The notes beneath the pieces were generated by a model, which was not told where the DNA came from, made no database searches, and worked only from the letters and a program-made list of their open reading frames with translations. The position numbers were made by a program, and so were the translations under genes. Positions 5,178 to 64,000 of a stretch of 64,000 nucleotides of DNA are shown here, piece after piece (within the stretch, counting starts at the first letter, position 1; the number at the start of each line of letters is the position of its first letter). Source of the stretch: Chlorophyllum brunneum (taxonomy: Eukaryota > Basidiomycota > Agaricomycetes > Agaricales > Agaricaceae); NCBI GenBank assembly GCA_963576785.1, contig OY756145.1, forward strand, positions 1,116,001 to 1,180,000, given 5' to 3'.

Positions 5178-5209
5178 GATGGTGGTAACTATGCCCTACC
5201 AAGCATAAG

Positions 5210-5233
5210 TACCGTTGCCCAAGACCAACGGTA
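5210..5233 (-). other. 3' UTR hairpin of LINE-B (copy B1)
   Basis: TACCGTTG and CAACGGTA form a perfect 8-bp stem around an 8-nt loop. The same hairpin is in B2 (about 16362), B4 (34224-34247) and B5 (about 44138). LINE 3' UTR hairpins often serve as the landmark by which the RT recognises its RNA. That role here is inferred. Confidence 0.6.
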
Positions 5234-5623
5234 GGAGGAATTGCATCCTACTCCCGAGCCTGAAGGGCAAGGGGAGTGGACGCCAGAAGAGGTGAGTGGG
5301 CAGGGAGGTCCCCCAACCAGTGACCCAGTCCAAAGACCAGGCCCGGTCAGTAGGTGTTAATTCACTGTAAATGCCCAGCAGTGGAAACGCCCCAGTTACC
5401 GGTCTGGTTACTAGCCTCCGGAGTTCTTCTTACTGAGAGTCAACCCCCCGGCCATGGTTACCCTTGCCAGAGTAATAGGCCGCACCATTTGTGTGGCTAT
5501 CGGCGTCTTCACCACACCTAGTCGCCAAAGGGGACAACTCCATTCATAAAACTCCGACGGTCTTCACCGGACTTTTACCGGAGTTCTCCGGCGCCGGACA
5601 ATAACCCACCTACCCTGAGCCAG

Positions 5624-8600: not shown

Positions 8601-9489
8601 GGGCATCCACTTGATCCAGGGATTCCGGAGAGGGACGACCAGAAAGATTAGTCACCTCATCAATGACATGTCCCAGAAAGGCCTCTTCTTCCTCGGAGCC
8701 CTTCGGCAGGACGGACTTGACAACCCCAATGCCAACAGGGGTGATGGGAAGGGTGACGGTCAGCAGAATGTGATCCAAAGTACCCTGCAGAGATGTATCC
8801 CAATAAGGAAAAGTCCTTGATACATCGGGAGATGAGACAAACACCAGATCGATCACCGATGGGCAGAGATCTGGGTTGTGGGAAATAAATGTCGGACCCG
8901 GGTTAGTTGGAATAACCAAATTGAGACCAAGATCGCAGCTCATTTCCATGAGCCTATGAGCTGTCGTTCGATAATGCAGAACCTCAGGGTCCCACTCCAA
9001 AGAATGACAGTTAAAGTCCCCACTCATAAAGTTGAATGGGGGAAGAACATCAACCTTCCCATGAAGGAAGTTGATGGCGGTATGCTGATCATCTGAGTAG
9101 ACGTTCAGGAAATTAAGGGCCTTCGCATCAGTGAAGAGCGTCAGTGCCAAGATATCAGGGTGATCCACGAGGTCCCTCCTCATTGATGGCCTTAGATGTT
9201 GCAGCCGAGTGTGTACATACGCCATCACTCGGGGCAGGGACCCCTGGGTAGGGGGACGCACCACCATAAGCCAGTCAGGGTGCTTAGGTGCACCAGTAAC
9301 GTCATCCCCTTCCATGTCAGTGGTCGAGGGAGCGGTGCGAATCAACCTCCATGGAGGTTCTTGGAAAAAGAGAATGTCAAAGTCATCTTTTAACTTCTCG
9401 AGCAGAGTGTCAACGTATATATAAGATTTAGCAATGTTAAACGAAAATACCCTAATGCCCTCCAGATGGTCCAGGTTGTTCCTAGACAT
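5624..9489 (-). pseudogene. LINE-B ORF2 of B1, broken by one stop and one frameshift
   Basis: Three open pieces cover the whole ORF2. 9489-8452 encodes the endonuclease (FFQEPPW, GDFNCHS). 8451-6637 encodes the RT (AFDIAQFFPSL, YVDD). 6950-5624 encodes RNase H and the Cys/His tail. A TAG at 8449-8451 replaces a Trp found in B2 and B4 (GDWGDFRRA). A one-base loss in the G run near 6756 shifts the frame relative to the longer G run of B2. The product would not be functional. The ATG at 9489 lies in the ATGTCTAG overlap with ORF1. Confidence 0.88.
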
Positions 9490-9595
9490 AAGGGGGGTTA
9501 TGAGGGGGGATGGGAGAGCGACAACGTCTGTCACGCACCTCTTGATAACGGGCTGTCAGCCAGGCCCGGTCATGTTTGTGGTTCCAGAAAGTGCA

Positions 9596-9609
9596 CTTCC
9601 TGGAATCAG
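9596..9609. repeat. TSD of chimera 1, left (partner 14007-14020)
   Basis: CTTCCTGGAATCAG lies directly before X1a and is repeated exactly at 14007-14020, directly after the LINE-A poly(A). It is part of the B1 ORF1 sequence and brackets X1a plus A2 as one insertion. Confidence 0.95.
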
Positions 9610-10105
9610 CATCATTTGCTCCTTGACTTGTTACCACCACCATCACTTTTCCACTTCCCTTTCCTCATCGCACCATTTGTTTCTCGGGCTCTCTCTCATG
9701 GGCTCGTGTCTTTTCTGAGCCTTCGCTGGCTGTAGGGGGGCGGTCCGGGTGGCAACGTTAGTCGGTCGATGGGCGGCGCGCCCTTGGTGAAGGCGATTAA
9801 AGGTGGGCATATCCCCACCGTTCATCTGACTGATGCCTATACGCACAGGTCGACGAGGCGGCCCCTTGGTAAAGGGCCTTAAAGGCTGGGATACTGGCCA
9901 CCTCGCTCGCTTGCACTTGCTGGGTCGTCAGTGGTGGCGGCCCTTCTATTAATTAGATGGGCTTGCAGTCCCGTATAGGGTTCGCATGTGGGTTTTACTC
10001 CTACTGCAGGTCAAGTCTGGCTAGTATCTCGAGGCTGGGCTATACCAGCTGACGACGGACATCCAGGCCCACCCCCAATCGTGCGTGCACGTCGGTGGGG
10101 AGCGT

Positions 10106-10121
10106 GCTGAAAAAAGCCACC
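10106..10121 (+). repeat. X motif, first copy in X1a
   Basis: GCTGAAAAAAGCCACC, one base different from the form GCTGAAAAAAGCCGCC found in the other copies of X1 and X2. Confidence 0.8.
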
Positions 10122-10614
10122 CTGTCGCACCCGAAAGGGACCGAAAGGATAGGGGACGATAATAGGGGGAACGGAGTGATAACAAGCCGACCGAAAGGAC
10201 AGGCCACCCCCCACCAGTGTCGCCATGCCTTCGGGAACCCCTCTGGGGGTAGCGTCTGGTCGTTAGTAGGGATACGCCAAACTCCAGGGCACAGGCGGGT
10301 TCGGGTTGACTTGGGGAAACTCGGGTTGATTGGCGCCCGTTCCGTGGAATGCTTAAGTAATCCGTTCCGCGGGTTCCTTAGGTAATCCAATGTGAACACC
10401 ACCCTGGTAGCGCCCCCTGCGAGACAGAGATCCCTGCCAGTATTAGCATGCGGATCCGCGCCCAAAGACAAGTCACCTCCTCCGGGGGTAGGGCATAGCG
10501 AAAGCGGCTGCGGGGGAACGGGAAGCTAGTCCAGGGGTCGCGCCTTGGAGGTACGCCTTTGTGGCCTCTGCCTGCCCAACTAGTGGACCGTAGCGGGCCG
10601 TTTACTAGGAGCGT

Positions 10615-10630
10615 GCTGAAAAAAGCCGCC
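10615..10630 (+). repeat. X motif, second copy in X1a
   Basis: GCTGAAAAAAGCCGCC, followed by CGGTTACTGAGA and GCTCGAGAGG. These also follow the second motif of X2a, so the similarity extends well past the 16 nt. Confidence 0.85.
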
Positions 10631-10926
10631 CGGTTACTGAGAAGGAGCGGCCCAGCTCGAGAGGTCAAAATCCTCTGTCGGTGGGTCCCCGTGAAGATCG
10701 GAGTGTACCCATTTGAGTTGTTACCACGCGAGAGGTCTGGGTTTGGGGTGGCAACGTGCGCAGTCAAGCGGTGAGATCCCGTCTGTGCACCATATAGGAA
10801 GGATGCCTCAAGCAAACGGCGGGCTGGTCCTCAGGGATACCGCGCTCTCTCAGTAGCGGGGTGTTCGCCCAAGCTAAAGGCTTTACCTCTTAGGAGGGAG
10901 GGGCAAAGTCCCCGCAACATGGCCGG

Positions 10927-13689
10927 ATGCGACACCAATATGGGAGCCTGGGAACATGCTGGGCATTCTACAGGCACACGACGTCTCAAGACCCCCATTT
11001 CTGGGCCTCTAGGAGCTTTATTCCCTCAAGGGGCTCCGTACGCGGGCACAATACCTACAACTCGGCTTCTGGCCGAGCTGTAGATGTTTCTGTTCTTGAT
11101 CTGCTGCCAAGCCTTACGGCACGGGAATGGGTCCATTTCTCAGCCTTAGAGCTGATGGACGCCCTTAGCGCATGCTCGGGTGTGTCCGCCCCGGGGCCGG
11201 ACCATGTAACATGGACCCACCTCAAGGAGATCACCGAGGACCCCGATGTCCTTCGGCTATTCATCGGGATAGCCAATGCTTGCATGAGTGTGGGTCATTG
11301 GCTGTCCCATTTCAAGGAAAGCTTGTCGGTTATCATACCGAAACCGGGCAAGCCGTCCTACTCAACGCCCAAGGCGTTCAGACCCATTGTGCTCTTGAAC
11401 ACCTTCGGTAAGCTCATCGAGAAGATGATCTTGAATCGCCTCCAGTTTGACTCTGTCAAGCATGGAGTGTTTCATCCAAATCAGCTCGGTGGTATCCGTC
11501 AGAGGTCCACTGATGATGCTGGGATGCTCCTAACCCACATTGTTTGCGCGGGGTGGGCCAAGGGCCTCAAGGCTAGCGTTGTCGCTTTTGACATCGCTCA
11601 GTTCTTTCCTTCGCTCAACCACTCTATGTTGTTGGCGATTTTACGGAAGCAAGGATTCGACCCCTGTGTGGGTAGATTCTTTGCCTCTTATTTGGTGGGA
11701 CGCTCTACGCAGTATGCGTGGGGGGACCACAAGTCTGATCTCAGGCAAGCGGACGTTGGGGTAGGTCAGGGCTCTTCGCTCTCTCCTGTCCTCTCCGGCC
11801 TCTATCTTGCCCCCTTCATGAAACTTTATGATAGGGAGGCAATCGCTCTTGGGAGTACTTTGCTCTCATACGTTGATGATGGCCTTGCCATCGTCCAAGC
11901 TAAAACTTGGGAACCTAATTTGGTGTGCCTCAAGCAGGCGTACCAGATTATTTATCGCCTGACTACTTCGTTTGGGCTTGCCGTCGAGCATGACAAGTCT
12001 GAAGTCTTTCATTTCTCCCGTAAACGGGGAGATGACAATCCACCGCTGGACCTGGGGTATGCTCCCCACACCGGCGACTCTCCGCTTCACCCCAAGACCC
12101 ATTGGAGGTACTTGGGCTTCTTCTTCGATCGCGCTCTTACGTTTAAAGAGCACGTTCGGCATTACGCTACTAAGTCTCTGTCCATGGTCAAGGCCATGGG
12201 CATGCTTGGTAACTCCTCGCGAGGCCTTCTTCCTGCCCAAAAGAGGACTCTGTACTGCTCATGCGTAGTACCTATTGCTACATATGGGTTTCGACTCTGG
12301 TTTTACGAAGGTGCCCGTAATAAGGCCCTTCTGAAGCAACTTAACACTATGCAGCGTAGAGCTGCGTTGTGGATCACTGGTGCGTTCCGCACCAGCCCTA
12401 CCGGAGGAGCTGAAGCCTTGGCTGGCCTCATCCCCATCCACCTTCATCTCAGGAAGTTAGCTGCCCGTGCCGTCCACAGGGTGGCTACACTTTCTGATAA
12501 TCACCCTGTTCATTCCATTATGGGGCGTCAGTATGTAGGGGGTTGTGTTCCACACCCCAGATCGATCGCTCTCATGACCCCCGCCCAGGCGGGGAAGGTC
12601 AAGGGGCCGGTCACGGAGGCAAACTCTCGCTTGCCAGAATTAACGGAGACATTCGAGCTGTTTGCGCTCGAGGCATCACCAGGTTCTCGTCTCATGGACC
12701 GCTTCGTGGCCCAGGTGACTTTTAAGACGTATGACGCCTCGCTCGGTGGAAACCCTGTGGGTTGTCAAGTGGATTTGCTCAATGATACCCTTCGTGGGTA
12801 TTGTGAGGATAGGCAGGTTGTCTATGCAGCGACGGACGCGAGTCTGCCTCTGGTTGGAGACTTCCAGGCAGTTTCTGCTGCCCGTGTTTATAGGGGGATG
12901 CGCTTGCTTCATGCAATACGTCACCTAGCTGGCAAGGTTACAGCCCCGGATGCTGAACTCTTTGCCATTCGTATGGCCTTGGGGACTGCTGTCGCAGTCT
13001 CGGAGGCTGTACACATTGCGGTCTTCATGGACTCGATTGGTTCTGCCAAGCGAGCTCTTGACCCGTCCGTACGCTCTGGCCAGGGACACTCCCTGGCTGT
13101 GTGTCGACTTTTGTTGGAGTGGTTTAGGGATCGTCCTGACCGCTCCCTCACTTTCTGGTCCGTTCCGTCATCGGCGAAATGGTCCATTCATCACGAGGTG
13201 CATGTATTTGCCACCGATTTACAGGTTGCCGCTGGACGTCGTCCAGCGACATCAATTGATTCGCTGCGTAAGGTCAACGTAGCAGCTATTCAGAAGGCCT
13301 GGAAAGTCACTTTCCAGGACTCCTCTTATCGCGGTTCGAACTTCCTTGTTCTCAAGGATAGTAAGGACAAAGTTCTACAGCTGACGTACCTCCATGGGGG
13401 TTCTTGGCTTCCTTCTTTTCCCTCTCAGTCTGTTGCGACGAGAGCGAACCGTGCCATCCTCGGGCACGCTCCAACCGGCGAGTATCGCTCCCGGTTTCAT
13501 CCTCGAGAGCCTATTGGCTGCGAGTGTGGGGCTCCTCTGGAGACCCGCACTCATATCTTGTGCTCTTGTCCTCTGTACAAGAGACGTCGTGGCTTGCCGG
13601 TCTCTATCGACCAGCTTGTTAGTTTCCTTAAACGCAATCCCTCTGCGTTTGCGTTTAAGGCCAACATACCGCTTGCGGGAGTTGGATAA
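10927..13689 (+). CDS. X1-LINE-A fusion ORF: reverse transcriptase and RNase H (920 aa)
   Basis: An open frame starts at an ATG inside X1a (MRHQYGSLG..) and crosses the junction at 11046/11047 after about 40 residues. It continues as LINE-A ORF2 from NTYNSASG to the normal stop. The endonuclease is missing. The full RT is present (AFDIAQFFPSL, GVGQGSSLSP, YVDDGLAIV), as are RNase H (TDASLPL, APDAEL, VFMDS) and the Cys/His tail CECGAPLE. VFMDS has a Met where A1 has VFTD. Whether this frame is translated is unknown. Without an endonuclease it could act only on pre-nicked DNA or in trans. Confidence 0.6.
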   Translation: MRHQYGSLGTCWAFYRHTTSQDPHFWASRSFIPSRGSVRGHNTYNSASGRAVDVSVLDLLPSLTAREWVHFSALELMDALSACSGVSAPGPDHVTWTHLKEITEDPDVLRLFIGIANACMSVGHWLSHFKESLSVIIPKPGKPSYSTPKAFRPIVLLNTFGKLIEKMILNRLQFDSVKHGVFHPNQLGGIRQRSTDDAGMLLTHIVCAGWAKGLKASVVAFDIAQFFPSLNHSMLLAILRKQGFDPCVGRFFASYLVGRSTQYAWGDHKSDLRQADVGVGQGSSLSPVLSGLYLAPFMKLYDREAIALGSTLLSYVDDGLAIVQAKTWEPNLVCLKQAYQIIYRLTTSFGLAVEHDKSEVFHFSRKRGDDNPPLDLGYAPHTGDSPLHPKTHWRYLGFFFDRALTFKEHVRHYATKSLSMVKAMGMLGNSSRGLLPAQKRTLYCSCVVPIATYGFRLWFYEGARNKALLKQLNTMQRRAALWITGAFRTSPTGGAEALAGLIPIHLHLRKLAARAVHRVATLSDNHPVHSIMGRQYVGGCVPHPRSIALMTPAQAGKVKGPVTEANSRLPELTETFELFALEASPGSRLMDRFVAQVTFKTYDASLGGNPVGCQVDLLNDTLRGYCEDRQVVYAATDASLPLVGDFQAVSAARVYRGMRLLHAIRHLAGKVTAPDAELFAIRMALGTAVAVSEAVHIAVFMDSIGSAKRALDPSVRSGQGHSLAVCRLLLEWFRDRPDRSLTFWSVPSSAKWSIHHEVHVFATDLQVAAGRRPATSIDSLRKVNVAAIQKAWKVTFQDSSYRGSNFLVLKDSKDKVLQLTYLHGGSWLPSFPSQSVATRANRAILGHAPTGEYRSRFHPREPIGCECGAPLETRTHILCSCPLYKRRRGLPVSIDQLVSFLKRNPSAFAFKANIPLAGVG

Positions 13690-13969
13690 CACAGCGCGGC
13701 CCCTGCTAGCTTCCCACGTCTCTGGCGTGTGTAGAAGTTAATTGCGAATTGACGCATACTCTCCTTAGGGAGGGGAGGCAAGGGGTCGCACTACATATCT
13801 GGTCTAGGACTCGCGCGTTCGTGCGTGTTTCCGCAACCGTTCACCCAGACCGCCTGTCGGCGGTCTAGTTCGGCCAGGGGAGAGCCTATCTTCGTATATC
13901 CTTACATTGTAGCCTACATGTCACAGTAGATACAGGTGGACTGTGATCGCGCACCACCTTAAACATGAC

Positions 13970-13974
<5 letters not shown>
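13690..13974 (+). other. LINE-A 3' UTR (copy A2) with conserved hairpin
   Basis: 284 nt between the ORF2 stop and poly(A), nearly unchanged in A1, A5, A9 and A10. At 13847-13866 AGACCGCC and GGCGGTCT form a perfect 8-bp stem with loop TGTC. It lies about 110 nt before the poly(A), and the same hairpin is at 26119-26138, 48215-48234 and 50575-50594. It is a candidate RT recognition site. No AATAAA is seen. The tail follows CATGACGATTT, with poly(A) at 13975-14006. Confidence 0.75.
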
Positions 13975-14008
<34 letters not shown>

Positions 14009-15861
14009 TCCTGGAATCAGTGGGATGCTTCTTCTTGCAGTGACGACAATGAGGAGGATGGGGGCATGGTTGACCAGTAGGGGTAGCAGGAACCGGAGGC
14101 GTAGCCTTCGGTTGACCCTTACAACACAGTGCAAAGGTGCGGTGGTTAGCATGAGAGTGCACACCACCGCAGTCGGGACATGCAGGGCCATTGGCCTTGC
14201 ACCAGGAGGAGGCATGGCCCCACTTGTAGCAGCGGGTACACAACGACTCATTGCGGCGAGGGTTAGCAGAGAGTATAATGCACTGCTTGTTCCCAAACAT
14301 GATCTTCTTATTCAGAAGACCAAGGGCTCGGGTACCCCTCATGGAGTCCCAGATGTCAAAGAACGCTGTACACGAGTCGGACGTCTTGGAGTTGCGCACC
14401 AGCCTAGGGGGACCCCTCAGGCTGATAAGAGGAGTATACACCGACGAGGTGAGAACCTCCTCGACGTCTGCTGGGGTACACTGAACTCCAGTGGCAGAGT
14501 TCTTGAGATACGGGACGTCGACCACATGGAGGTACGACACCGAAGATGGGAGTCCAATCCAGAAGGGAGCTCCTGGAGGGGACAGATGTTCAACCAATGC
14601 CCTAAGGATCTCAATATCCTTGGTTATGGTGAGTTTATTAGTGGCCATGGAATAGCCATCGTATGCGAGCGTGGCACCTTCCACAATCAAAGAGCTTCTC
14701 CCAGCCTTCAACACCTTACAGGCCTGCTGGGTAAGAGTATGGAGACCAGCCGAGGCATTCGACTTGTCTTCATAGGAAACTAGGACCTGCTTACGCGACA
14801 GACCAGGAATTGTGAATGCTGGCTTCTTAGGGCAAGCGTTCGACGAGGGAGATTGCTTTGCAGCCTCAGCCTGTGAATGAAGGCTGAGGAGCTGCTCTGC
14901 GGAGAGATGAGGGAAGGCCGCTTTCAATGCAGAAAACGGCCCCACCCCAGACTTGGACGAGGCCGGTTGTTTCGCTGCAGCCGAATAAGCCTTCTGTCCT
15001 GGCTTAGGCTTCGAAGCGATCGTGGAGGGAGGAGGTCCAGAGGGCCTCTCATAGGGGACCTGAGGCTTTGTAGGGGCCTTAACAGGTCAGACAGGTGCCT
15101 TTCCCTTAGGGTCCGTGCGCGGGCGTTTGACCGGAGTCTTCTCTGGATCCATAAGGTTGTCCTCCTCCTGCACAGAAGCTCTGCGCTGGGGGGGGGCCAA
15201 GGATAGAAGGCCCTGGTACCCTGGGGGGGGTAGCCGAGGGCCTATAAGTCACCACTGGGAGAGCAGGAAATGCCGAAGCGATCGAGTCCCTCAGGGAGAG
15301 AGAGTCACTTGCCCCTGTGTAGGTTTCATGCCACATGGGGGAGGATGCGACTGTCTGGACTATCTCAGATAGTCGAGAGGCGATAGGATGGAAGGACAGA
15401 GCATCCTCCTGAGGAATAAGATGTGCCGTCTTCATAAAGTCGGCGACAATCTCAAGCGACCGTTGGATCGCATCGGTGTCCTCTCTGGCACTAATATTAA
15501 TGCCCAAAATAGAGAGGGGGGCGGCAGTAGGCTCCTCCTGGTCATCCTGTTCCATATCCTCCGGGAAGGCAGGGGGAGGGGAAGACGGGGGGAGGAACGA
15601 AGCCCTGGCTTCTGCACCAGTAGCTGGGATAGGTCGAGAGGGGGTTGGGGACCCATGTCATGACGGAGTGTGTCCCCTCTGCTGAAGGGGAACTGTGGGG
15701 GCATAGGTATCCCTGGCACTGCTGCCGTAGAGGGGGATACCCAGAGAGTAAGGGCCTGGGGTGGACCTGGGGGGGGGACCGGCTGCTGCCTCGAAGGCAG
15801 TGGCCATGTCATCGTCGTCTGAGGAGGCCTCACGATGGGTGCTCGAACTGCGAGTAGGCAT

Positions 15862-15994
15862 GGGGGCTAGGGGCCCATACGGAAATCTGCACTAGGAGCG
15901 CTCACTGTCTTGGACATGTAGGACGTTAAGAGTGTCGACGAAGGGGTGATCATGTGATCGACAGGTAGGAGTTCTGGGAAAAGAAGCAATGATG
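15862..15994 (-). other. LINE-B 5' UTR (copy B1)
   Basis: About 130 nt between the element's 5' end and the ORF1 start, closely matching 40471-40599 of B4. LINE 5' regions usually hold an internal promoter, but I see no TATA-like or other definable motif. Confidence 0.6.
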
Positions 15995-16212: not shown

Positions 16213-16766
16213 TTTTTTTTTTTTTTTTTTTTTTTTTAATCATGGCCTAGGGCCAATTTATTACGCGGCGCTCGAACACAGCCCGCGGCCGGGATACAAA
16301 AGAGTAAACTAGCGGGTATCTACGGAGAGAGTGGTAGCTACGCCCCACCAAGCAGAAGTACCGTTGCCCAAGACCAACGGTAGAAGGAACCGCGACCTAC
16401 TCCCGAGCCCGAAGGGCGAGGGGGTGGACGCTAGAGGAGGCGAGTGGGCAGGGAGGTCCCCCAACCAGCGACCCAGTCCAAAGACCAGGCCCGGTCAGTA
16501 GGTGTTGATTCACTGTAAATGCCCGGCGGTGGAGACGCACCCAGTTACTAGCCCAGCTGAGCCCCAACCCCTTTTACTAAGACCCAGTCCCCCAGCCACG
16601 GTCACCCTTGCCAGAGTAATTGACCGCACCATTTGTGTGGCTATCGGCATCTTCACCACACCTAGTCGCTGTGGGGTCCAGGCCCGTTCATCGGTCGTCG
16701 GAACTGTCGCCAGGTCTTCGCCAGGGGTCACCGGTGCCGGACAATAACCCACCTACCCTAAGCCAG

Positions 16767-20633: not shown

Positions 20634-21149
20634 AAGGGGGGTTATAAGGGGGGATGGGAGAGCGACGACGTCTGTCACGCACCTCTCGATAGCGGGCTGT
20701 CAGCCAAGCCCGGTCGTGTTTGTGGTTCCAGAAAGCGCACTTCCTGGAATCAGCGGGATGCTCCTTCTTGCAGTTACGGCAATGAGGAGGATGGGGGCAC
20801 GGTTGACCAGTAGGGGTAGCAGGAACCGGAGGCGTAGCCTTCGGTTGCCCCTTACAACACAGAGCAAAAGTGCGGTGGTTAACACGAGAGTGCGCACCAC
20901 CGCAGTCGGGACATGCCGGGCCATCGGCCTTGCACCAGGAGGAGGCGTGGCCCCACTTGTAACAGCGGGTACACAGCGACTCGTTACAACGAGGGTTAGC
21001 AGAGAGTATCACGCACTGCTTGTTCCCAAACATGATCTTCTTGTTCAGAAGACCGAGAGCTCGGGTACCCCTCATGGAGTCCCAGATATCAAAAAACGCC
21101 GTACATGAGTCAGACGTCCTGGAGTTGCGCACCAGCCTAGGGGGACCCT
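20626..21149 (-). pseudogene. LINE-B ORF1, C-terminal zinc-knuckle part
   Basis: The final 170 codons of ORF1, beginning at the truncation point of B2. It contains SCTAFFDIWDSMRGTRALGLLNKK, then CTRCYKWGHASSWC, CPDCGGAHSRVNH and CRNCKKEHPADSRKC, with a basic end REVRDRRRRSP. There is no start codon of its own. It ends with TAG at 20626-20628, overlapping the ORF2 ATG. Confidence 0.88.
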
Positions 21150-25618: not shown

Positions 25619-25990
25619 GCGACCTTTAGAACTACGAAGTATCTGTGTATATCAGCAGAATTGTAATAAAAATTATGATTTAGTTGATACTCTACTTGAG
25701 GATCTCAAAGATCACTTTGACATCCTCCTTTTTCAAGAACCTCCCTGGCGGTTCATCAGATCCGCTCCCTCCTCAACTTCTGTTGAGGGGGATGACGTTG
25801 TTGGCGCCCCCAAGAACCCCAAGTGGCTGTGCATGGTTCGGGCCCCGGAGCCTGGCTCTGACCCATGGGTTATGACATTTGTCCATAACCGGTTGTCTTC
25901 TCTGAGACCGTCCTATCAGACAGATCTCATCAATCACCGTGACATCATGGTTCTCTCCCTCTTTCTGGGGGGCGAGACCCTGAATCTCAT
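25611..25990 (+). pseudogene. LINE-A ORF2 of A4, endonuclease N-terminus
   Basis: Starts at ATG in ATGAATAG. It encodes MNRRPLELRSICVYQQNCNK.., LFQEPPWRFIRSAPS and up to LGGETLNL at the chimera 2 insertion. The next codons (MNIYSDSEH..) are at 32232. Confidence 0.85.
25976..25990. repeat. TSD of chimera 2, left (partner 32217-32231)
   Basis: GACCCTGAATCTCAT is repeated exactly at 32217-32231. The left copy touches the LINE poly(T). The right copy touches the 5' end of X1b. Confidence 0.95.
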
Positions 25991-26295
25991 TTTTTTTTTT
26001 TTTTTTTTTTAAATCGTCATGTTTAAGGTGGTGCGCGATCGCAGTCCACCTGTATCTACTGTGACATGTAGGCTACAATGTAAGGATATACGAAGATAGG
26101 CTCTCCCCTGGCCGAACTAGACCGCCGACAGGCGGTCTGGGTGAACGGTTGCGGAAACACGCACGAACGCGCGAGTCCTAGACCAGATATGTAGTGCGAC
26201 CCCTTGCCTCCCCTCCCTAAGGAGAGTATGCGTCAATTCGCAATTAACTTCTACACACGCCAGAGACGTGGGAAGCTAGCAGGGGCCGCGCTGTG

Positions 26296-29200
26296 TTATC
26301 CAACTCCCGCAAGCGGTATGTTGGCCTTAAACGCAAACGCAGAGGGATTGCGTTTAAGGAAACTAACAAGCTGGTCGATAGAGACCGGCAAGCCACGACG
26401 TCTCTTGTACAGAGGACAAGAGCACAAGATATGAGTGCGGGTCTCCAGAGGAGCCCCACACTCGCAGCCAATAGGCTCTCGAGGATGAAACCGGGAGCGA
26501 TACTCGCCGGTTGGAGCGTGCCCGAGGATGGCACGGTTCGCTCTCGTCGCAACAGACTGAGAGGGAAAAGAAGGAAGCCAAGAACCCCCATGGAGGTACG
26601 TCAGCTGTAGAACTTTGTCCTTACTATCCTTGAGAACAAGGAAGTTCGAACCGCGATAAGAGGAGTCCTGGAAAGTGACTTTCCAGGCCTTCTGAATAGC
26701 TGCTACGTTGACCTTACGCAGCGAATCAATTGATGTCGCTGGACGACGTCCAGCGGCAACCTGTAAATCGGTGGCAAATACATGCACCTCGTGATGAATG
26801 GACCATTTCGCCGATGACGGAACGGACCAGAAAGTGAGGGAGCGGTCAGGATGATCCCTAAACCACTCTAACAAAAGTCGACACACAGCCAGGGAGTGTC
26901 CATGGCCAGAGCGTACGGACGGGTCAAGAGCTTGCTTGGCAGAACCAATCGAGTCCATGAAGACCGCAATGTGTACAGCCTCCGAGACTGCGACAGCAGT
27001 CCCCAAGGCCATACGAATGGCAAAGAGTTCAGCATCCGGGGCTGTAACCTTGCCAGCTGGGTGACGTGTTGCATGAAGCAAGCGCATCCCCCTATAAACA
27101 CGGGCAGCAGAAACTGCCTGGAAGTCTCCAACCAGAGGCAGACTTGCGTCCGTCGCTGCGTAGACAACCTGTCTATCCTCGCGATACCGCCGAAGGGTAT
27201 CGTTGAGCAAATCCATCTGACAACCCACAGGGTTTCCACTGAGCGAGGCGTCATACGTCTTAAAAGTCACCTGGGCCACGAAGCGGTCCATGAGACGAGA
27301 ACCTGGTGATGCCTCGAGCGCAAACAGCTCGAATGTCTCCGTTAATTCTGGCAAGCGAGAGTTTGCCTCCGTGACCGGCCCCTTGACCTTCCCCGCCTGG
27401 GCGGGGGTCATGAGAGCGATCGATCTGGGGTGTGGAACACAACCCCCTACATACTGACGCCCCATAATGGAATGAACAGGGTGATTATCAGAAAGTGTAG
27501 CCACCCTGTGGACGGCACGGGCAGCTAACTTCCTGAGATGAAGGTGGATGGGGATGAGGCCAGCCAAGGCTTCAGCTCCTCCGGTAGGGCTGGTGCGGAA
27601 CGCACCAGTGATCCACAACGCAGCTCTACGCTGCATAGTGTTAAGTTGCTTCAGAAGGGCCTTATTACGGGCACCTTCGTAAAACCAGAGTCGAAACCCA
27701 TATGTAGCAATAGGTACTACGCATGAGCAGTACAGAGTCCTCTTTTGGGCAGGAAGAAGGCCTCGCGAGGAGTTACCAAGCATGCCCATGGCCTTGACCA
27801 TGGACAGAGACTTAGTAGCGTAATGCCGAACGTGCTCTTTAAACGTAAGAGCGCGATCGAAGAAGAAGCCCAAGTACCTCCAATGGGTCTTGGGGTGAAG
27901 CGGAGAGTCGCCGGTGTGGGGAGCATACCCCAGGTCCAGCGGTGGATTGTCATCTCCCCGTTTACGGGAGAAATGAAAGACTTCAGACTTGTCATGCTCG
28001 ACGGCAAGCCCAAACGAAGTAGTCAGGCGATAAATAATCTGGTACGCCTGCTTGAGGCACACCAAATTAGGTTCCCAAGTTTTAGCTTGGACGATGGCAA
28101 GGCCATCATCAACGTATGAGAGCAAAGTACTCCCAAGAGCGATTGCCTCCCTATCATAAAGTTTCATGAAGGGGGCAAGATAGAGGCCGGAGAGGACAGG
28201 AGAGAGCGAAGAGCCCTGACCTACCCCAACGTCCGCTTGCCTGAGATCAGACTTGTGGTCCCCCCACGCATACTGCGTAGAGCGTCCCACCAAATAAGAG
28301 GCAAAGAATCTACCCACACAGGGATCGAATCCTTGCTTCCGTAAAATCGCCAACAACATAGAGTGGTTGAGCGAAGGAAAGAACTGAGCGATGTCAAAAG
28401 CGACAACGCTAGCCTTGAGGCCCTTGGCCCACCCCGCGCAAACAATGTGGGTTAGGAGCATCCCAGCATCATCAGTGGACCTCTGACGGATACCACCGAG
28501 CTGATTTGGATGAAACACTCCATGCTTGACAGAGTCAAACTGGAGGCGATTCAAGATCATCTTCTCGATGAGCTTACCGAAGGTGTTCAAGAGCACAATG
28601 GGTCTGAACGCCTTGGGCATTGAGTAGGACGGCTTGCCCGGTTTCGGTATGATAACCTACAAGCTTTCCTTGAAATGGGACGGCCAATGACCCACACTCA
28701 TGCAGGCATTGGCTATCCCGATGAATAGCCGAAGGACATCGGGGTCCTCGGTGATCTCCTTGAGGTGGGTCCATGTTACATGGTCCGGCCCCGGGGCGGA
28801 CACACCCGAGCATGCGCTAAGGGCGTCCATCAGCTCTAAGGCTGAGAAATGGACCCATTCCCGTGCCGTAAGGCTTGGCAGCGGATCAAGAACAGAAACA
28901 TCTACAGCTCAGCCAGAAGCCGAGTTGTAGGTATTGTGGAGTGCGTCCCAGAGATCCGGGAGTGCGTGACATGGCTCTCCATTGAACTGGATAGCCTCGC
29001 AGAGTGGAAGCTTCCGCTTATGGACCCATTCCATCAGGTCCCACGGTCGCTTGTTTGTAGAAGCAATCTCCTCGATGCGAGCATCAAAGAAGTTGCGCTT
29101 TGCGTGCTTCTTAGCACGTCTAAAATCAGAGTAATCATTGTGAGAATGAGTCTCACGATATCTCCCGAAAGTTTCACGGCATTCCTGGTTCCACCAGGGC

Positions 29201-30168
29201 TTAGAGCGGCGAGTGATCATGATGTCCACTGCGTGGGCTTCCCACGCGGTGGAGAAGGCCTCCGCAACGGCGTGAACCGCGGCCTCAACCTCATCAGCAG
29301 TGGTAGGTTCCGGAAGCCTAGCTACTTCTCGGAGATCCCGAATAACATCAGTGAGGAAGAGCGCTACCTCTTTGCCACCATCATGCGGCAGGGTTTTCCT
29401 GTGAGTCTCCACTATCGTGGGAGTGACTGGAAGCGCCAGAACCAGTGGAACGTGGTCTGATGGACCCCTAAGGGAGTAATCCAACCTGGGTCTATGGGAG
29501 ATAGACAGGTCCGATGGAACAAATGCAAGATCAATGACCGACGGTCGAAGATCCTCATTGTGCGGAATGTGAGTAGGCCCAGGCTCGACCGGAAGGGCGA
29601 GGTCTAGACCGATGTCTGTCCCGATGGAGATCAGAGACTGCGAGGTACCTGAGTGGGAGCCATAATTAGGGTCCCACAACTCAGAATGGCAATTGAAATC
29701 GCCGCCCATATAGACATGCTTGGGCAATGTGGCAGCCCGGTCCACCAGGAACCGAATTGCCGTGTGCTCCGAATCAGAGTAAACGTTCATGAGATTCAGG
29801 GTCTCACCCCCCAGAAAAAGGGAGAGAACCATGATGTCATGGTGATTGATGAGATCCGTCCGATAGGATGGTCTCAGAGAAGACAACCGGTTATGGACAA
29901 ATGTCATAACCCGTGGGTCAGAGCCAGGCTCCGGGGCCCGAACCATGCACAGCCACTTGGGGTGCTTGGGGGCGCCAACAACGTCATCCCCCTCAACAGA
30001 AGTTGAGGAGGGAGCGGATCTAATGAACCGCCAGGGAGGTTCCTGAATAAAGAGAACATCAAAGTGATCTTTGAGGTCTTCAAGTAATGTGTCCAGTAAA
30101 TCATAACTTTTGTTAAGATTCTGTTGGTACAATCTGATACTACGTAGTTCTAGAGGTCGCCTATTCAT
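26296..30168 (-). pseudogene. LINE-A ORF2 of A5, full length with two stops
   Basis: The frame matches A1 codon for codon (3873 nt) and is broken only by TGA at 28909-28911 (Arg of SGRAVDV) and TAG at 28657-28659 (Ser of ESLSVII). The endonuclease, RT (YVDDGLAIV), RNase H and Cys/His tail are all present. With two point changes it is a recent but inactive copy. Confidence 0.9.
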
Positions 30169-30910
30169 TGGCAAGCTGTAGAGTACGAGGGTTGGTGAGG
30201 GGAGATCGCCGTCGAAGACGGTTGTTACTCACCTCGCGATAAAACTTCTTGATCTTCTCGGGTTCAAACCGAGCGTCAAAGAATTTACACTTCTTCGAGG
30301 TCGTATGGTGGGGACCCCGACAGTTGAGACAACGCGGTGTATGAGGACAGGGCTCATCCGACGGTGTGGGAGGAATAGGGGGCTGCACGCTGGAGTTACC
30401 CTTGCAGCGCCCACAGAGAGTTCGGTGATGTTCCTCGCGATGAGGACCACCACAGGTCGGGCATTTCAAGGCCTGCGCCTTGCAGAATTGCATGGGGTGG
30501 CCCCAGTGGAAGCAACACTTGCACTGAGACACCCCCGGAGAGGCTGCGGATGGCCTGATAGGACAGGCGTATCCACCGACATGGAGCGACTTCCTGAGAA
30601 GGAGGTTCGCCCGCTGACCCTTCTGAGAGTCGTGAATATTGAAGTACACCATGGCGGTATCAGACGCCTCGGAGTTCCTCGAAATACGGGGGGGTCCCGT
30701 TAACGTGAAGAGGTCAGAAAACGCGGAGCGTTTCATAATCTGTTCGATCTCAAACGAGGACCAGCGAGTCTCGCCGATCCTGCCCGCGTACGGAGCCCCT
30801 TGAGGGAATAAAGCTCCTAGAGGCCCAGAAATGGGTGTCTTGAGACGTCGTGTGCCCGTAGAATGCCCAGCATGTTCCCAGGCTCCCATATTGGTGTCGC
30901 ATCTGGCCAT
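30161..30910 (-). pseudogene. X1-LINE-A ORF1 fusion frame with three zinc knuckles
   Basis: A 249-codon frame starts at an ATG in X1b (MARCDTNMGAWEHAG..) and crosses the joint at 30782/30783. It continues in frame as ORF1 from RIGETRWSSFEIEQIM to the three knuckles (CKCCFHWGHPMQFC, CPTCGGPHREEHH, CLNCRGPHHTTSKKC), and ends in the TAG that overlaps ORF2. The X-derived leader uses a different X frame from chimera 1, so an ancestral X protein is unlikely. Confidence 0.6.
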
Positions 30911-31198
30911 GTTGCGGGGACTTTGCCCCTCCCTCCTAAGAGGTAAAGCCTTTAGCTTGGGCGAACACCCCGCTACTGAGAGAGCGCGGTATCCCTGAGG
31001 ACCGGCCCGCCGTTCGCTTGAGGCATCCTTCCTATATGGTGCACGGACGGGATCTCACCGCTTGACTGCGCACGTCGCTACCCCAAACCCAGACCTCTCG
31101 CGTGGTAACAACTCAAATGGGTACACCCCGATCTTCATGGGGACCCACCGACAGAGGATTTTGACCTCTCGAGCCGGGCCGCTCCTTCTCGGTAACCG

Positions 31199-31214
31199 GG
31201 CGGCTTTTTTCAGC
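31199..31214 (-). repeat. X motif, second copy in X1b
   Basis: The reverse strand reads GCTGAAAAAAGCCGCC. Confidence 0.85.
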
Positions 31215-31707
31215 ATGCTCCCAGTAAACGGCCCGCTACGGTCCACTAGTTGGGCAGGCAGAGGCCACAAAGGCGTACCTCCAAGGCGCGACCCCTGGAC
31301 TAGCTTCCCGTTCCCCCGCAGCCGCTTTCGCTATGCCCTACCCCCGGAGGAGGTGACTTGTCTTTGGGCGCGGATCCGCATGCTAATACTGGCTGGGATC
31401 TCTGTCTTGCAGGGGGCGCTACCAGGGTGGTGTTCACATTGGATTACCTAAGGAACCCGCGGAACGGATTACTTAAGCATTCCACGGAACGGGCGCCAAT
31501 CAACCCGAGTTTCCCCAAGTTAACCCGAACCCGCCCATGCCCTGGAGTTTGGCGTATCCCTACTAACGACCAGGCGCTACCCCCAGAGGGGTTCCCGAAG
31601 GCATGGCGACACTGGTGGGGGGTGGCCTGTCCTTTCGGTTGGCTTGTTATCACTCCGTTCCCCCTATTATCGTCCCCTATCCTTTCGGTCCCTTTCGGGT
31701 GTGACAG

Positions 31708-31723
31708 GGCGGCTTTTTTCAGC
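31708..31723 (-). repeat. X motif, first copy in X1b
   Basis: The reverse strand reads GCTGAAAAAAGCCGCC, where X1a has CACC at the end. The two motifs of X1b are 509 nt apart, the same spacing as in X1a. Confidence 0.85.
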
Positions 31724-32216
31724 ACGCTCCCCACCGACGTGCACGCACGATTGGGGGTGGGCCTGGATGTCCGTCGTCAGCTGGTATAGCCCAGCCTCGA
31801 GATACTAGCCAGACTTGACCTGCAGTAGGAGTAAAACCCACATGCGAACCCTATATGGGACTGCAAGCCCATCTAATTAATAGAAGGGCCGCCACCACTG
31901 ACGACCCAGCAAGTGCAAGCGAGCGAGGTGGCCAGTATCCCAGCCTTTAAGGCCCTTTACCAAGGGGCCGCCTCGTCGACCTGTGCGTATAGGCATCAGT
32001 CAGATGAACGGTGGGGATATGCCCACCTTTAATCGCCTTCACCAAGGGCGCGCCGCCCATTGACCGACTAACGTTGCCACCCGGACCACCCCCCTACAGC
32101 CAGCGAAGGCTCAGAAAAGACATGAGCCCATGAGAGAGAGCCCGAGAAACAAATGGTGTGATGAGGAAAGGGAAGTGGAAAAGTGATGGTGGTGGTAACA
32201 AGTCAAGGAGCGAATG

Positions 32217-32437
32217 GACCCTGAATCTCATGAACATTTACTCTGATTCAGAGCACATGGCAATTCGGTTCCTAGCAGACCAGGCTGCTACATTGCCCAA
32301 GCATGTCTATATGGGCGGTGATTTCAATTGCCATTCTGAGTTTTGGGACCCTAATTATGGCTCCCACTCAGGCACCTTGCAGTCTCTGATCTCCATTGGG
32401 ACAGACATCGGTCTAGACCTTGCCCTTCCGGTCGAGT
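32217..32437 (+). mobile_element. LINE-A copy A4, second piece (endonuclease)
   Basis: Continues the A4 endonuclease after chimera 2: LNLMNIYSDSEHMAIRF.., MGGDFNCHSEFWDP and ISIGTDIGLDLALPVE. It stops where X2a begins. The expected next codons (PGPTHIPHNEDL) are not found after chimera 3, so the rest of A4 is missing from the assembly here. Confidence 0.85.
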
Positions 32438-32752
32438 ACCAGTGCGCAAGGTGTGGTTGCTTAGCAATATTCCCGGATAACACCGGATTAGGTTGTGTGG
32501 TCCTGTTTGGCATTGTTTGGTGCTGTCACAGGCTAGCGTGGGAGTTGTCACACCCAGCCACATAGCAAGTCACATAGTAACGTCACACTGTCACGGTGTG
32601 ACCCAGCTATGTGCATCGCCCAAGTCCAATATTGGCCAAAGGTGGTGGTGCCCTAATGCCGGGGCCTAACTTGGGAGGATTACCTAAGCTACTGCTGGAG
32701 ATAGGGCATTATAAGAAGGGGAATGTCGTGATAACAGTCCGACTCGGGGCGT

Positions 32753-32768
32753 GCTGAAAAAAGCCGCC
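32753..32768 (+). repeat. X motif, first copy in X2a
   Basis: GCTGAAAAAAGCCGCC. Confidence 0.85.
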
Positions 32769-33039
32769 GAGATAGGATACCCCTCCCGGTCCGCTTTGGC
32801 ATAGTTCCGGTAGTTAGTAGACATAACCCAATCTCCAGATTGAGGATGCTGACTAAGTTGGCTTAAAATAACCTCAGGACCAATCTGGTAGCGGTGTCTG
32901 CAAGGTGTAGATCTCAGACAGTTAAGCACGGGGATCCGGGCCATAAGGCATACCGAACCGGCTGCTGAGGAACGGAAAGCAACTCCGGGGTAGCGCCTGG
33001 GTGAAGTTGTGGGCCGTAGCAGGTGATGTACCGGGGCGT

Positions 33040-33055
33040 GCTGAAAAAAGCCGCC
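33040..33055 (+). repeat. X motif, second copy in X2a
   Basis: GCTGAAAAAAGCCGCC, in a context that aligns with 10615-10630 of X1a. Confidence 0.85.
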
Positions 33056-33211
33056 GGTTATCAGAGAATGCTCACCTGGCTCGAGAGGACTAAATCCTAC
33101 ATCGGTTGGCCTGGTACAGGAAAAATAGCCAGGTTCCAGCTCAAGTTGATTCCACGTCGCCATTGGCTAAGGCTGGTGGTAAGAGACCCCTCAAGGGGCT
33201 CCGTAGACGGG

Positions 33212-34081
33212 TGTTATTGGCGCCCCCAAGCACCCCGAGTGGCTGTGCATGGTTCGGGCCCCGGAGCCTGGCTCTGACCCACGGGTTATGACATTTGTCC
33301 ATAACTGGTTGTCTTCTTTGAGGCCGTCCTATCGGACGGACCTCATTAATCACCGTGACATCATGGTTCTCTCCCTTTTTTTGGGGGACGGGACCCTGAA
33401 TCTCATGAACGTTTACTCTGATTTGGAGCACACTGCAATTCGGTTCCTGGCGGACCGGGCTGCTACATTGTCCAGACATATCTATATGGGCGGCGATTTC
33501 AATTGCCATTCTGAGCTCTGGGACCCTAACTATGGCTCCCACTCAGGTACCTCGCAGTCTCTGATCTCCATCGGGACAGACATCGGTCTAGACCTTGCCC
33601 TTCTGGTCGAGCCTGGACCTACCCACATTCCACACAATGAGGATCTTCGACCATCGGTCATTGATCTTGCATTTGTTCCATCAGACCTGTCTATTTCTCA
33701 TAGACCCAGGTTGGATTACTCCCTTAGGGGTCCGTGAGACCACGTTCCACTGATCCTGACGCTTCCAGTCACTCCCACGATAGTGGAGACTCACAGGAAA
33801 ACCCTGCCGCATGATGGTGGCAAAGAGGTAGCACTCTTCCTCACTGATGTTATTCGGGATCTCCGAGAAGTAGCTAGGCTTCCGGAACCTACCACTGCTG
33901 ATGAGGTTGAGGCCGCGGTTCACGCCGTGGCAGAGGCCTTTTCCACCGCGTGGGAAGCCCATGCGGTGGACATCATGATCACCCGCCGCTCTAAACCCTG
34001 GTGGAACCAGGAATGCCGCGAAACCTTCGGGAGATATCGTGAGACTTGTTCCCACGATGACTACTCGAGCTTTAGACATGC
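33212..34081 (+). pseudogene. LINE-A ORF2 of A6, endonuclease part
   Basis: Starts at GAPKHPEWLCMVRAPEPGSD (about residue 57), with MGGDFNCHSELWDP and SVIDLAFVPSDL. TGA at 33735-33737 replaces the Ser of the catalytic PSDH. It continues to RSKPWWNQECRETFGRYRE and is cut by B4. The same frame resumes at 40615. Confidence 0.85.
34067..34081. repeat. TSD of B4, left (partner 40600-40614)
   Basis: GAGCTTTAGACATGC is repeated exactly at 40600-40614 and belongs to A6 ORF2. Confidence 0.95.
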
Positions 34082-34121
34082 TTTTTTTTTTTTTTTTTTT
34101 TGAATCATGGCCTAGGGCCAA

Positions 34122-40599: not shown

Positions 40600-40614
40600 G
40601 AGCTTTAGACATGC

Positions 40615-55401: not shown

Positions 55402-55416
55402 GGTGACGTTGACCTC

Positions 55417-61498: not shown

Positions 61499-63294
61499 CA
61501 CCTTGGCCTTGGGCTGAACTGTGGATATTTCTGTTCTTGATCCACTACCAAGTCTTCTAGCTAGGGAGTGGGTCCATTTTTCAGCCTTAGAGCTGATGGA
61601 TGCCCTGAGTGCATGCTCGGGTGTGTCCGCCCTGGGGCCAGACCATGTAACATAGACCCACCTCAAAGAGATCGCCAAGGACCCCGATGTCCTTCGGTTA
61701 TTCATTGGGATAGCTAATGCCTGCATGTATGTGGGTTATTGGCCATCCCATTTCAAGGAGAGCTTGTTGGTTATCATACCAAAGCCAGGCAAGCCATCCT
61801 ACTTGATGCCCAAGGTGTTCAGGCCCATTGTGCTCCTGAACACCTTTGGCAAACTTATTGAGAAGATGATCTTGAATCACCTCCAGTTTGATTCGGTCAA
61901 ACATGGAGTTTTTCATCCAAATCAGCTCGGTGGTATCCATCAGAGGTCCACTGATGATGCTGGGATACTCCTAACCCACATCGTTTGTGCGGGGTGGGCC
62001 AAGGGCCTCAAGACTAGCATTGTCGCTTTTGACATCGCTCAGTTCTTTCCTTTGCTCAACCACAATATGTTGTTGGTGATTCTATGAAAGCAAGGATTTG
62101 ACCCTTGTGTGGGTAGATTCTTTGCCTCTTATTTAATTGGCTGCTCTATGCAGTACACATGGGGAGACCATAAGTCTGATTTCAGACAAGTGGACGTTGG
62201 GGTAGGTCAGGGCTCATTGCTCTCTCCTGTCCTTTCCGGCCTTTATCTTACCCCCTTCATGAAACTCTATGATAGGGAGGCAATCGCACTTGGGAGTACC
62301 CTTCTCTCATATGTCGACAACGGCCTTGCCATTGCCCAGGCAAAAACCTGGGAACCTAATCTGGTATGCCTTAAGCAGGCATACCAGATTATATATTGCC
62401 TGACTACTTTGTTTGGACTTGCCGTCGAGCATGACAAGTCCAAAGTGTTTCACTTCTCCCATAAACAGGGAGATGACAACCCACCGCTGGATTTGGGGTA
62501 TGCTCCCCATACCAGTGATACTCTGCTATGCCCTAAGACCCATTGGAGGTACTTGGGTTTTTTCTTTGACTGGGCTCTTACTTTTAAAGAGCATGTTCGA
62601 CATTATGCTACTAAGTCTCTGTCCACTGTCAAGGCCATGGGCATACTTGGTAACTCATTGCAAGGTCTTCTTCCTGCTCAGAAGAGGACTCTGTATCGCT
62701 TATGTGTAGTGCCTATCGCTACATATGGGTTCCATTTGTGATTTTATGAAGGTGCCCGTAACAAGGCCCTTCTGAAACAACTTAACACTATGCAGTGCAG
62801 AGCTGCATTGTGGATCACTGATGCATTCTGCACCAGCCCCACTGGAGGAGCTGAAGCCTTAGCTGGCCTCATCCCCATCCACCTCCATCTCAAGAAACTG
62901 GCTATCCATACCGTCCACAGGGTTACCACCCTCTGTGAGAACCATTCGGTTTGCTCTGTTATGGGGTGTCAGTATATAGGGGGTTGTGTTCCATACCCCA
63001 GATCGATCACTCTCATGACCCCCGCCTAGGCAGTCAAGGTCAAGAGGCCAGTCACGGAGGCAAACTCTCATTTGCCAGACTTAATGGAGATGTTCAAGCC
63101 ATTTGCACTCGAAGTGTCACCAGGTTCTCGTCTCCTGGACCACTATGTAGCCCAGGTGATTTTCAAGATGTATGATGCCTCGCTCGGTGGAAACCCTGCG
63201 GGTTGTCAGGTGGATTTGCTCAACAATACCCTTCATGGGTATCGTGAGGATAGACAGGTTGTCTATATGACGACAGATACAAGTCTGCCATTGG
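61499..63294 (+). pseudogene. LINE-A ORF2 of A8, RT to RNase H
   Basis: Resumes after C1 with ELWIFLFLIHYQV-like codons in a decayed linker. The RT follows (IPKPGKPSYLMPKVFRPIVLLNTFGK, AFDIAQFFPLLNHN, GVGQGSLLSPVLSG, YVDNGLAIA) and then the start of RNase H (MTTDTSLPL). AAC at 62319-62321 replaces the second active-site Asp. Stops include TAG at 61653-61655 (Trp of VTWTHL), TGA near 62087 (Arg of LRKQGF) and TGA near 62741 (Trp). It ends where the tRNA-like sequence begins. Confidence 0.85.
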
Positions 63295-63299
63295 CCTAA

Positions 63300-63310
63300 T
63301 GGTCAAGTGG
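63300..63310 (+). promoter_or_regulatory. RNA polymerase III A box
   Basis: TGGTCAAGTGG fits the A-box consensus TRGYNNARNNG. It is followed by a 5-bp anticodon-like stem GTAGG/CCTAC (63318-63334) with a 7-nt loop CTTAATT, giving a UAA 'anticodon' and suggesting a tRNA-Leu ancestor. Confidence 0.6.
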
Positions 63311-63358
63311 TTTGGGTGTAGGCTTAATTCCTACCAGGCTGCTTGGCTAGAAGGTCCT

Positions 63359-63370
63359 GGGTTTGAAACC
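63359..63370 (+). promoter_or_regulatory. RNA polymerase III B box
   Basis: GGGTTTGAAACC resembles the B box GGTTCGAANCC, with C to T in the CpG. The spacing from the A box (about 58 nt) is within the tRNA range. Confidence 0.55.
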
Positions 63371-63719
63371 TGTGGAGGGGGATTTATTCTCAACCGTGGG
63401 AAGTACCAGTGCGCAAGGCGTGGTTGCTTAGCAATATTCCCAGGTGACACCGGATTAGGTTGTGTGGTCCTGTTTGGCATTGTTTGGTGCTGTCACAGGC
63501 TAGCGTGGGAGTTGTCACACCCAGCCACATAGCAAGTCACATAGTGACATCACACTGTCACGGTGTGACCCAGCTATGTGCATTGCCCAAGTCCAATATT
63601 GGCCAAAGGTGGTAGTGCCCTAATGCTGGGGCCTAACTTGGGAGGATTACCTAAGCCACTGCTGGAGATAGGGCATTATAAGAAGGGGAATGTCGTGATA
63701 ACAGTCCGACTCGGAGCAT

Positions 63720-63735
63720 GCTGAAAAAAGCCGCC
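63720..63735 (+). repeat. X motif in X2b
   Basis: GCTGAAAAAAGCCGCC, in the same context as 32753-32768. Confidence 0.85.
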
Positions 63736-64000
63736 GAGATAGGATACCCCTTCTGGTCCGCTTCGGCATAGTTCCGGTAGTTAGTAGACATAACCCAATC
63801 TCCAGATTGAGGATACTGACTAAGTTGGCTTAAAATAACCTCAGGACCAATCTGGTAGCAGTGTCTGCAAGGTGTAGATCTCAGACAGTTAAGCACAGGG
63901 ATCTGGGCTGTAAGGTATACCAAACCGGCTGCTGAGGAACGGGAAGCAACTCTGGGGTAGTACCTGGGTGAAGTTGTGGGCCATAGCAGGTGATGTACCA

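Follow-up and report, generated by a model that had tools for sequence, protein, structure and literature searches.

Lineage-specific joints between non-coding RNAs and LINEs in Chlorophyllum brunneum: evidence for a four-nucleotide guide

How does a non-coding RNA come to be fused to a long interspersed nuclear element (LINE), and what chooses the place of the joint? The question is raised by a chimera, here called chimera 1, within a 64,000-nt stretch of the Chlorophyllum brunneum genome (GCA_963576785.1, contig OY756145.1, positions 1,116,001 to 1,180,000 of the forward strand; hereafter the window), in which a sequence named X1 stands directly 5′ of a truncated LINE, LINE-A. Fungal LINE chimeras have so far been read as the product of template switching by reverse transcriptase (RT). 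Here the joint is partly predictable from the sequence of the partner RNA: the LINE letters lost just upstream of it go with the lineage of X and pair with a four-nucleotide spot in X.

Single insertions with a fixed X 3′ end

Chimera 1 (Table 1) is bounded by a perfect 14-bp target-site duplication (TSD), from which the initial annotation of this locus had concluded that X1 and LINE-A arrived together. The 14-mer is present three times on the + strand of the window, at 9596, 14007 and 20740. The host of the chimera is a LINE-B copy on the opposite strand (5182-9610 and 14006-15991), and the occurrence at 20740 lies in an uninterrupted LINE-B paralogue (16218-21149, − strand) that preserves the empty site, which confirms that X1 and the truncated LINE-A entered in one insertion event. 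The joint, 11046↓11047 (the arrow marks joints throughout), corresponds to LINE-A position 3314 and falls about 290 nt ahead of the Pfam RT match, in agreement with the earlier placement just before the RT. In the TSD test, which covered X1 chimeras, exact repeats of 12-15 nt follow a poly(A) run in 9 of 27 copies, which speaks against chance, and where TSDs are readable each chimera is one insertion; the remaining 18 have repeats of at most 8 nt or no poly(A) run, several of them being stretches that end early or are interrupted.

We searched the 38.9-Mb genome (14 contigs; the window lies within contig C7), scoring in each search the best 40 of 78 to 243 first-look candidates. At least 57 places with X1 were listed (lists merged by eye, and some may be fragments of one copy), with further ones added later. 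A second RNA family, X2, gave 109 first-look candidates, and X1 gave 89; X2 is about 886 nt long, has the same kind of 3′ end and is related to X1 in its body (alignment blocks scoring 77, 44, 33 and 31; the highest score in 100 shuffles was 29). We read 104 intact X 3′ ends, 57 of X1 and 47 of X2, and all 104 run into a LINE (71 LINE-A, 27 LINE-B, 6 LINE-C); 102 of them are mapped joints, and the remaining two belong to L036 and to chimera 2 (Table 1). Not counted here are X1 copies interrupted by antisense LINE inserts or fragmentary (L023, L030, L057, L058), L008, an X2 broken in L030, and L037. No solo X copy was met among these 104 ends, which came from the best 40 candidates per search, and one may exist elsewhere. 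The share of LINE insertions that carry X is not cleanly countable, as nested fragments dominate.

The 3′ end of X1 is constant, and the LINE positions that follow it differ. This was the search proposed in the initial annotation, which had named X1 always followed by the same LINE-A position as the outcome that would speak against its reading; instead, the 57 X1 ends enter LINE-A or LINE-B at many positions, with TSDs where testable. In a set of 78 junctions, 61 distinct LINE positions are used; ten LINE sites recur in two to five loci. Most LINE matches begin no more than 2 nt from the joint, and 13 begin later (3 to 16 nt, with 16 in L086, and 60 nt in L096). The joints are blunt, microhomology being absent in 40 of 47. 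Spliceosomal trans-splicing was rejected, as AG precedes the joint in 2 of 47 cases, which is background. The partner RNA had been described as unrelated-looking. X1 is indeed foreign to LINE-A, since LINE-A and LINE-B each have their own 5′ end, distinct from X1; the partnership is not unique, however, as X1 uses these two LINE families and X2 uses LINE-A, LINE-B and LINE-C.

X1 has stops in all six frames and no frame open across most of its length, and a coding function was rejected. Compared with the window copy, X1a copies (one of two X1 lineages, X1a and X1b) show 0.2-0.6% transversions in the X1 part versus 0.8-3.0% in the joined LINE-A parts (up to 700 nt compared). X1 has therefore arisen from a small number of almost invariant sources and was not inherited as part of LINE-A. 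CpG-type transitions, a loose class that includes CpG, TpG and CpA contexts, account for 928 of the 1133 differences among X1a copies; genome-wide, X1 copies diverge mainly by such transitions, and methylation decay may be the cause. Rfam gave no family for X1 or X2 at gathering score, whether ribozyme, tRNA or other (six chance-level matches, E up to 5), and the X motif had no match in viral contigs. By eye, a box A-like stretch is visible in 11 X2 5′ ends and a box B-like one in L033 and the window copy, and promoters may lie in such heads; ARAGORN and Rfam report no tRNA. The absence of TTTT from 8 X2 copies carries no weight as a sign of RNA polymerase III, because 17-43% of simulated sequences also lack it. 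A terminal helix closing the X 3′ end (CCaCGNN with NNCGGG) varies compensatorily among X1a, X1b and X2, a hint that it is real; among these changes are CpG-type ones, the MAFFT alignment puts the X2 strand at another place, and folding favours other partners.

The site rule and the guide

The LINE triplet directly upstream of the joint, which is lost from the chimera, differs by X lineage. A first split by family gave CTC or CTT for X1 and CGA or TGA for X2, and separating X1a from X1b sharpened the rule to CUY↓ for X1a, CCU↓ for X1b and CGA↓ for X2. Of 102 mapped joints, 13 with a LINE alignment more than 2 nt from the joint were set aside; with chimera 2, a second X1a chimera in the window, 90 joints at 72 distinct sites were retained. 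At these sites the −2 letter is T in 22 of 23 for X1a, C in 15 of 18 for X1b and G in 26 of 31 for X2, and the −1 letter is mostly C, U and A, respectively. All three X-LINE joints in the window follow the rule (CTC↓C in chimera 1, CTT↓C in chimera 2 and TGA↓C for X2). Where lineages use neighbouring sites, the joints are shifted: at LINE-A 5590-5592 (GGACTC↓CT↓CTTATC) the joint of two X1a copies follows ACTC and that of three X1b copies lies 2 nt farther on, after CTCCT; in the region of 4833-4840 (ATCGA↓TCGCTC↓T↓CATG) the letters ahead of the joint are ATCGA for X2, CGCTC for X1a and GCTCT for X1b; and near 4390 X1a and X1b joints are again 2 nt apart. These shifts agree with the guides of the lineages, described below.

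One homologous 4-nt spot in the alignment of the three RNAs matches these targets: AACG-GAG-UGAUAAC in X1a, UAUGG-AGG-UGAAAAC in X1b and AAUG-UCG-UGAUAAC in X2. The resulting guides, G-GAG, G-AGG and G-UCG, pair with positions −3 to +1 of the targets of their own lineage, and the G before the triplet, present in all three RNAs, suits the preference for C or U at +1. Over the 72 sites, own-guide pairs (G-U allowed) number 253 of 288, whereas the best of 20,000 label shuffles reached 220. A full 4-bp fit to the own guide is found at 16 of 23 X1a, 9 of 18 X1b and 16 of 31 X2 sites (P 6e-16, 6e-8 and 7e-16), the background, taken from a stretch each of LINE-A and LINE-B, being 5.2, 5.0 and 3.4% of positions; the guides of other lineages fit at background, except the X1b guide on X1a sites. 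The guides GAG for X1a, UCG for X2 and, tentatively, AGG or GGG for X1b were predicted before the spot was located by eye in the alignment. It ranks first of 838 aligned columns (10.57 versus 10.09 for the next) when one nucleotide of slack is allowed, as X1b has an extra G there.

For validation, 24 new joints were fetched after the prediction. The new distinct X1b sites (CCT, TCT, CCT, CCC, CCT, CCT, CCT) have at least three pairs in 7 of 7 cases (P 2e-4), four of them fitting fully, and the new distinct X2 sites (CGT, CAA, CGA, CGT, CCA, CGA, CGA) in 6 of 7 (P 7e-4). That the joint site is chosen by guide pairing is thus well supported by the pattern of letters at the joints.

Joining of X to LINE RNA and its alternatives

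To explain these observations, we propose, as the probable course of events, that an RNA guide directs X to LINE RNA, that the two are joined in a reverse-splicing-like step, and that LINE retrotransposition follows. X1 and X2 would be non-coding hitchhiker RNAs with related bodies, each bearing a 4-nt guide (G-NNN before UGAWAA) that would pair with the LINE mRNA at −3 to +1. The fixed X 3′ end would then be joined at the RNA level exactly between −1 and +1, with loss of the LINE 5′ part, in a step resembling the first step of group II intron reverse splicing, where exon-binding site 1 (EBS1) and the adjacent delta base take part. Because the LINE 3′ end and poly(A) are retained, the LINE machinery could take up the X-LINE RNA, its endonuclease and RT copying it by target-primed reverse transcription up to the X 5′ end, so that a single TSD-flanked insertion results. 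Applied to chimeric transcripts, this chemistry would release X at its exact 3′ end, so that no solo X gene would be needed, and X may itself be the catalyst.

Several observations weigh against this proposal. Of the 72 sites, 31 lack a full 4-bp fit, X2 often taking CGT; the 13 joints set aside above, L096 and L086 among them, never entered the count; and among eight neighbouring pairs, L066 (X2, CCA↓C), L038 (X1b, TTT↓A), L034 (X1b, CCC↓C) and L031 (X2, CGT↓C) do not fit fully. Of the 23 X1a sites, 5 are also matched by the guide of X1b (P 0.005). Only 2 of the 7 new X2 sites fit fully, making the X2 validation clearly weaker than that of X1b. A first candidate spot, near the 3′ helix, was wrong, and an earlier automatic column scan did not rank the true spot because of the extra G in X1b. 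Judged within each RNA by itself, the guide is equalled or slightly surpassed by other 4-mers; what gives it strength is that all three RNAs agree. In predicted folds part of the guide is paired, and most of it in X2. Breaks at other places are seen in one X1 (L008) and one X2 (L030). Moreover, no catalytic core was recognised, Rfam giving no group I, group II or ribozyme match for X1 or X2, and X ends in GGG rather than the AY of group II introns.

The same guide could also serve a protein-based route, in which X pairs with the LINE RNA, cleavage is the work of an enzyme of the host or of the LINE, and the ends are sealed by an RNA ligase such as RtcB. We consider this unlikely. It would account for the site rule and the blunt joints without a ribozyme core, but the cut falls inside the paired stretch, as in reverse splicing, and a 4-bp duplex is short for a duplex-directed nuclease. 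RNA ligation is among the routes listed for LINE-1 chimeras (PMC13174262), and ligation by RtcB is one proposed form of it. Template jumping, in which the LINE RT pauses on the LINE RNA and jumps to the 3′ end of the X RNA, was the mechanism adopted in the initial annotation and is that put forward for the MINE elements of Magnaporthe (PMC2104539). It would readily give fixed X ends, variable LINE ends, TSDs and the observed clustering of sites (P 0.005), and at L008 (C11:888335), where X1 breaks off at 1388 and runs into LINE-A near 5247, TGGG being common to both, the joint looks like an ordinary template switch. Template jumping is also known in vitro for R2. However, template letters that escape copying should have no influence on a jump, and here the uncopied upstream LINE letters track the X lineage and pair with the guide; in addition, an RT stalled at the proposed X:LINE duplex would halt ahead of it, whereas the joints fall within it, and most of the joints lack microhomology. 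Chance template jumping is therefore hardly the main cause, and as a general explanation it appears distinctly improbable.

A further possibility, that X1 is the 5′ untranslated region of one composite element whose LINE ends vary by internal deletion, could draw on the similar start (CATCGCTYCTT) of X1 (9614), LINE-B (40600, −) and LINE-A (55400, −), perhaps a shared initiator, and on the recurrence of ten sites in two to five loci. It is scarcely credible given that LINE-A and LINE-B have other 5′ ends, that the X1a and LINE-A parts differ in transversions as though they had different histories, and that three LINE families serve, with joints at many positions of several of them.

Returning to guided joining by a reverse-splicing-like step, its boldest form would be that X1 and X2, and by extension the RNA partner WEIRD of MINE, are an unrecognised class of nuclear splicing ribozymes that attach by a short guide to LINE mRNAs; every chimera would then serve as a further source gene, its transcript releasing X with that 3′ end unchanged, and the LINE carrier would change every generation. 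To this we give slightly less than an even chance. If X does join itself, it would be an RNA-catalysed mobile element in a eukaryotic nucleus, riding LINEs, which share ancestry with group II introns.

The window and comparison with known systems

Most of the window consists of nested LINE copies from three families (A, B and C) that match endonuclease and RT domains; it also shows the other features of LINE partners, namely poly(A) and, on a full-length LINE-B (34083-40600, −), a 15-nt TSD. LINE-A has relatives at 44-60% in mushrooms including Cyclocybe and Psilocybe. LINE-C (55300-61498, +) is joined to six X2 copies located away from the X1 blocks (L061, L063, L074, L080, L087, L089); the listed X1 places mostly form one block per contig (C1-C7, C9-C11), which suggests centromeres. 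At 23510-43926 (+), LINE-A 1-2665 is followed by a head-less X2 (110-886) and LINE-A 2270-6241 with poly(A), later interrupted by chimera 2 and a LINE-B. Its 5′ joint, GGTCGA↓GTACCAG, contains the target motif of X2, as might result from a second splicing step; a TSD was looked for around this arrangement and not found, leaving a single event unproven. A tripartite chimera elsewhere, L037 (C4:2543157-2545085, −), consists of X2, X1 from about 237, and LINE-A 4495, with the X2-X1 joint at TCGA↓, the motif of X2 itself (hand alignment; the BLAST match starts 3 nt later).

Table 1. Coordinates of the X-LINE chimeras and associated features in the window
Feature	Position	Strand	Details
Left TSD, chimera 1	9596..9609	+	CTTCCTGGAATCAG; exact 14-mer match
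X1 copy, chimera 1	9610..11046	+	X1a lineage, full length, no long open frame; CATCATTT then GCTCCTTGAC...; 3′ end GTACGCGGG
X1a guide (candidate)	10173..10176	+	G (pairs LINE +1) and GAG (pairs LINE −1 to −3), then UGAUAAC
X1 3′ terminal hairpin (predicted) and fixed 3′ end	11012..11046	+	hairpin 11012-11037; X1b and X2 similar
5′-truncated LINE-A, chimera 1	11047..13974	+	starts at position 3314; RT match ~11335-12120
Poly(A) tail, chimera 1	13975..14006	+	
Right TSD, chimera 1	14007..14020	+	same 14-mer
Empty site in LINE-B paralogue	20740..20753	+	single copy of CTTCCTGGAATCAG
LINE-A part, chimera 2	26011..30782	-	from position 1470; other LINE-A copy has CTT↓C there; TSD ATGAGATTCAGGGTC at 32217-32231 and 25976-25990
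Second X1a copy, chimera 2	30783..32215	-	guide G31656 and GAG 31655-31653
X2 copy without tRNA-like head	32435..33211	+	guide G32725 and TCG 32726-32728
LINE-A joined to head-less X2	33213..34082	+	from ~position 2270 (other LINE-A copy: TGA↓C); resumes 40603-43897 beyond nested LINE-B (34083-40600, -)
X2 copy with tRNA-like head	63293..64000	+	box A-like 63300-63310 TGGTCAAGTGG; box B-like 63360-63370 GGTTTGAAACC; guide G63692 and TCG 63693-63695; cut by window end

A literature survey, in which subscription journals were thinly covered, turned up no report of a guide rule for LINE chimeras. In chemistry, the closest counterpart of the guided joining of X1 and X2 would be the group II intron. 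In group IIA introns, EBS1 pairs with −3 to −1 and the delta base just 5′ of it pairs with +1. The X joint likewise shows pairing upstream that resembles that of EBS1 with intron-binding site 1 (IBS1), together with an adjacent base pairing with +1, a likeness that is a statistical fit only. According to PMC6248898, the group II intron Ll.LtrB reverse-splices into cellular mRNAs at sites paired upstream (IBS/EBS), giving chimeric RNAs. Unlike it, X has a guide of 3-4 nt and no long open frame, depends on a LINE for DNA integration, and ends in GGG, where group II introns end in AY (PMC8393795); nor does Rfam recognise a core or domain V in X. With group I introns X shares a terminal G, again with no Rfam match. 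Those introns have a U at −1 of the target, opposite a guide G, whereas −1 is mostly C for X1a, U for X1b and A for X2. X2 resembles tRNA-derived short interspersed nuclear elements (SINEs) in what may be a tRNA-like head and in its dependence on LINEs. SINEs carry their own fixed 3′ tail, while the X2 3′ end is followed by many different LINE sites, with no such tail.

Among LINE chimeras, those of LINE-1 with U6, tRNA, 28S and other RNAs have the cellular RNA 5′ of the LINE, often in sense, with TSDs, as X does, and are attributed to ligation, trans-splicing, template switching or twin priming; no partner-specific pairing rule appears in the sections consulted (PMC13174262). MINE, named as the parallel in the initial annotation, proves apt by anatomy: a full-length, non-coding WEIRD of about 1.1 kb lies 5′ of a 5′-truncated LINE, MGL, with TSDs and many LINE sites, no solo WEIRD was found, one case is tripartite, and the joints carry a GCC↓A/U motif (PMC2104539). 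X1 and X2 are likewise full-length non-coding RNAs fused on the same strand to 5′-truncated LINEs at variable joints, with TSDs (9 of 27 X1 copies) and no solo partner among the 104 ends read; they differ in that two RNA families and three LINE families take part, the rule is specific to the lineage, and a guide has been located. The MINE authors favoured template switching and left unclear why the RT leaves before GCC. In their Table 3, 12 of 13 distinct rows, which are the authors' selection, pair fully with a GGC (or GGU) guide, G-U counted, and by analogy the GCC↓A/U sites would fit the same guide logic. The puzzle that WEIRD and MINE have posed since 2007, with no solo gene and GCC at the joint, thereby becomes a testable guide-target problem.

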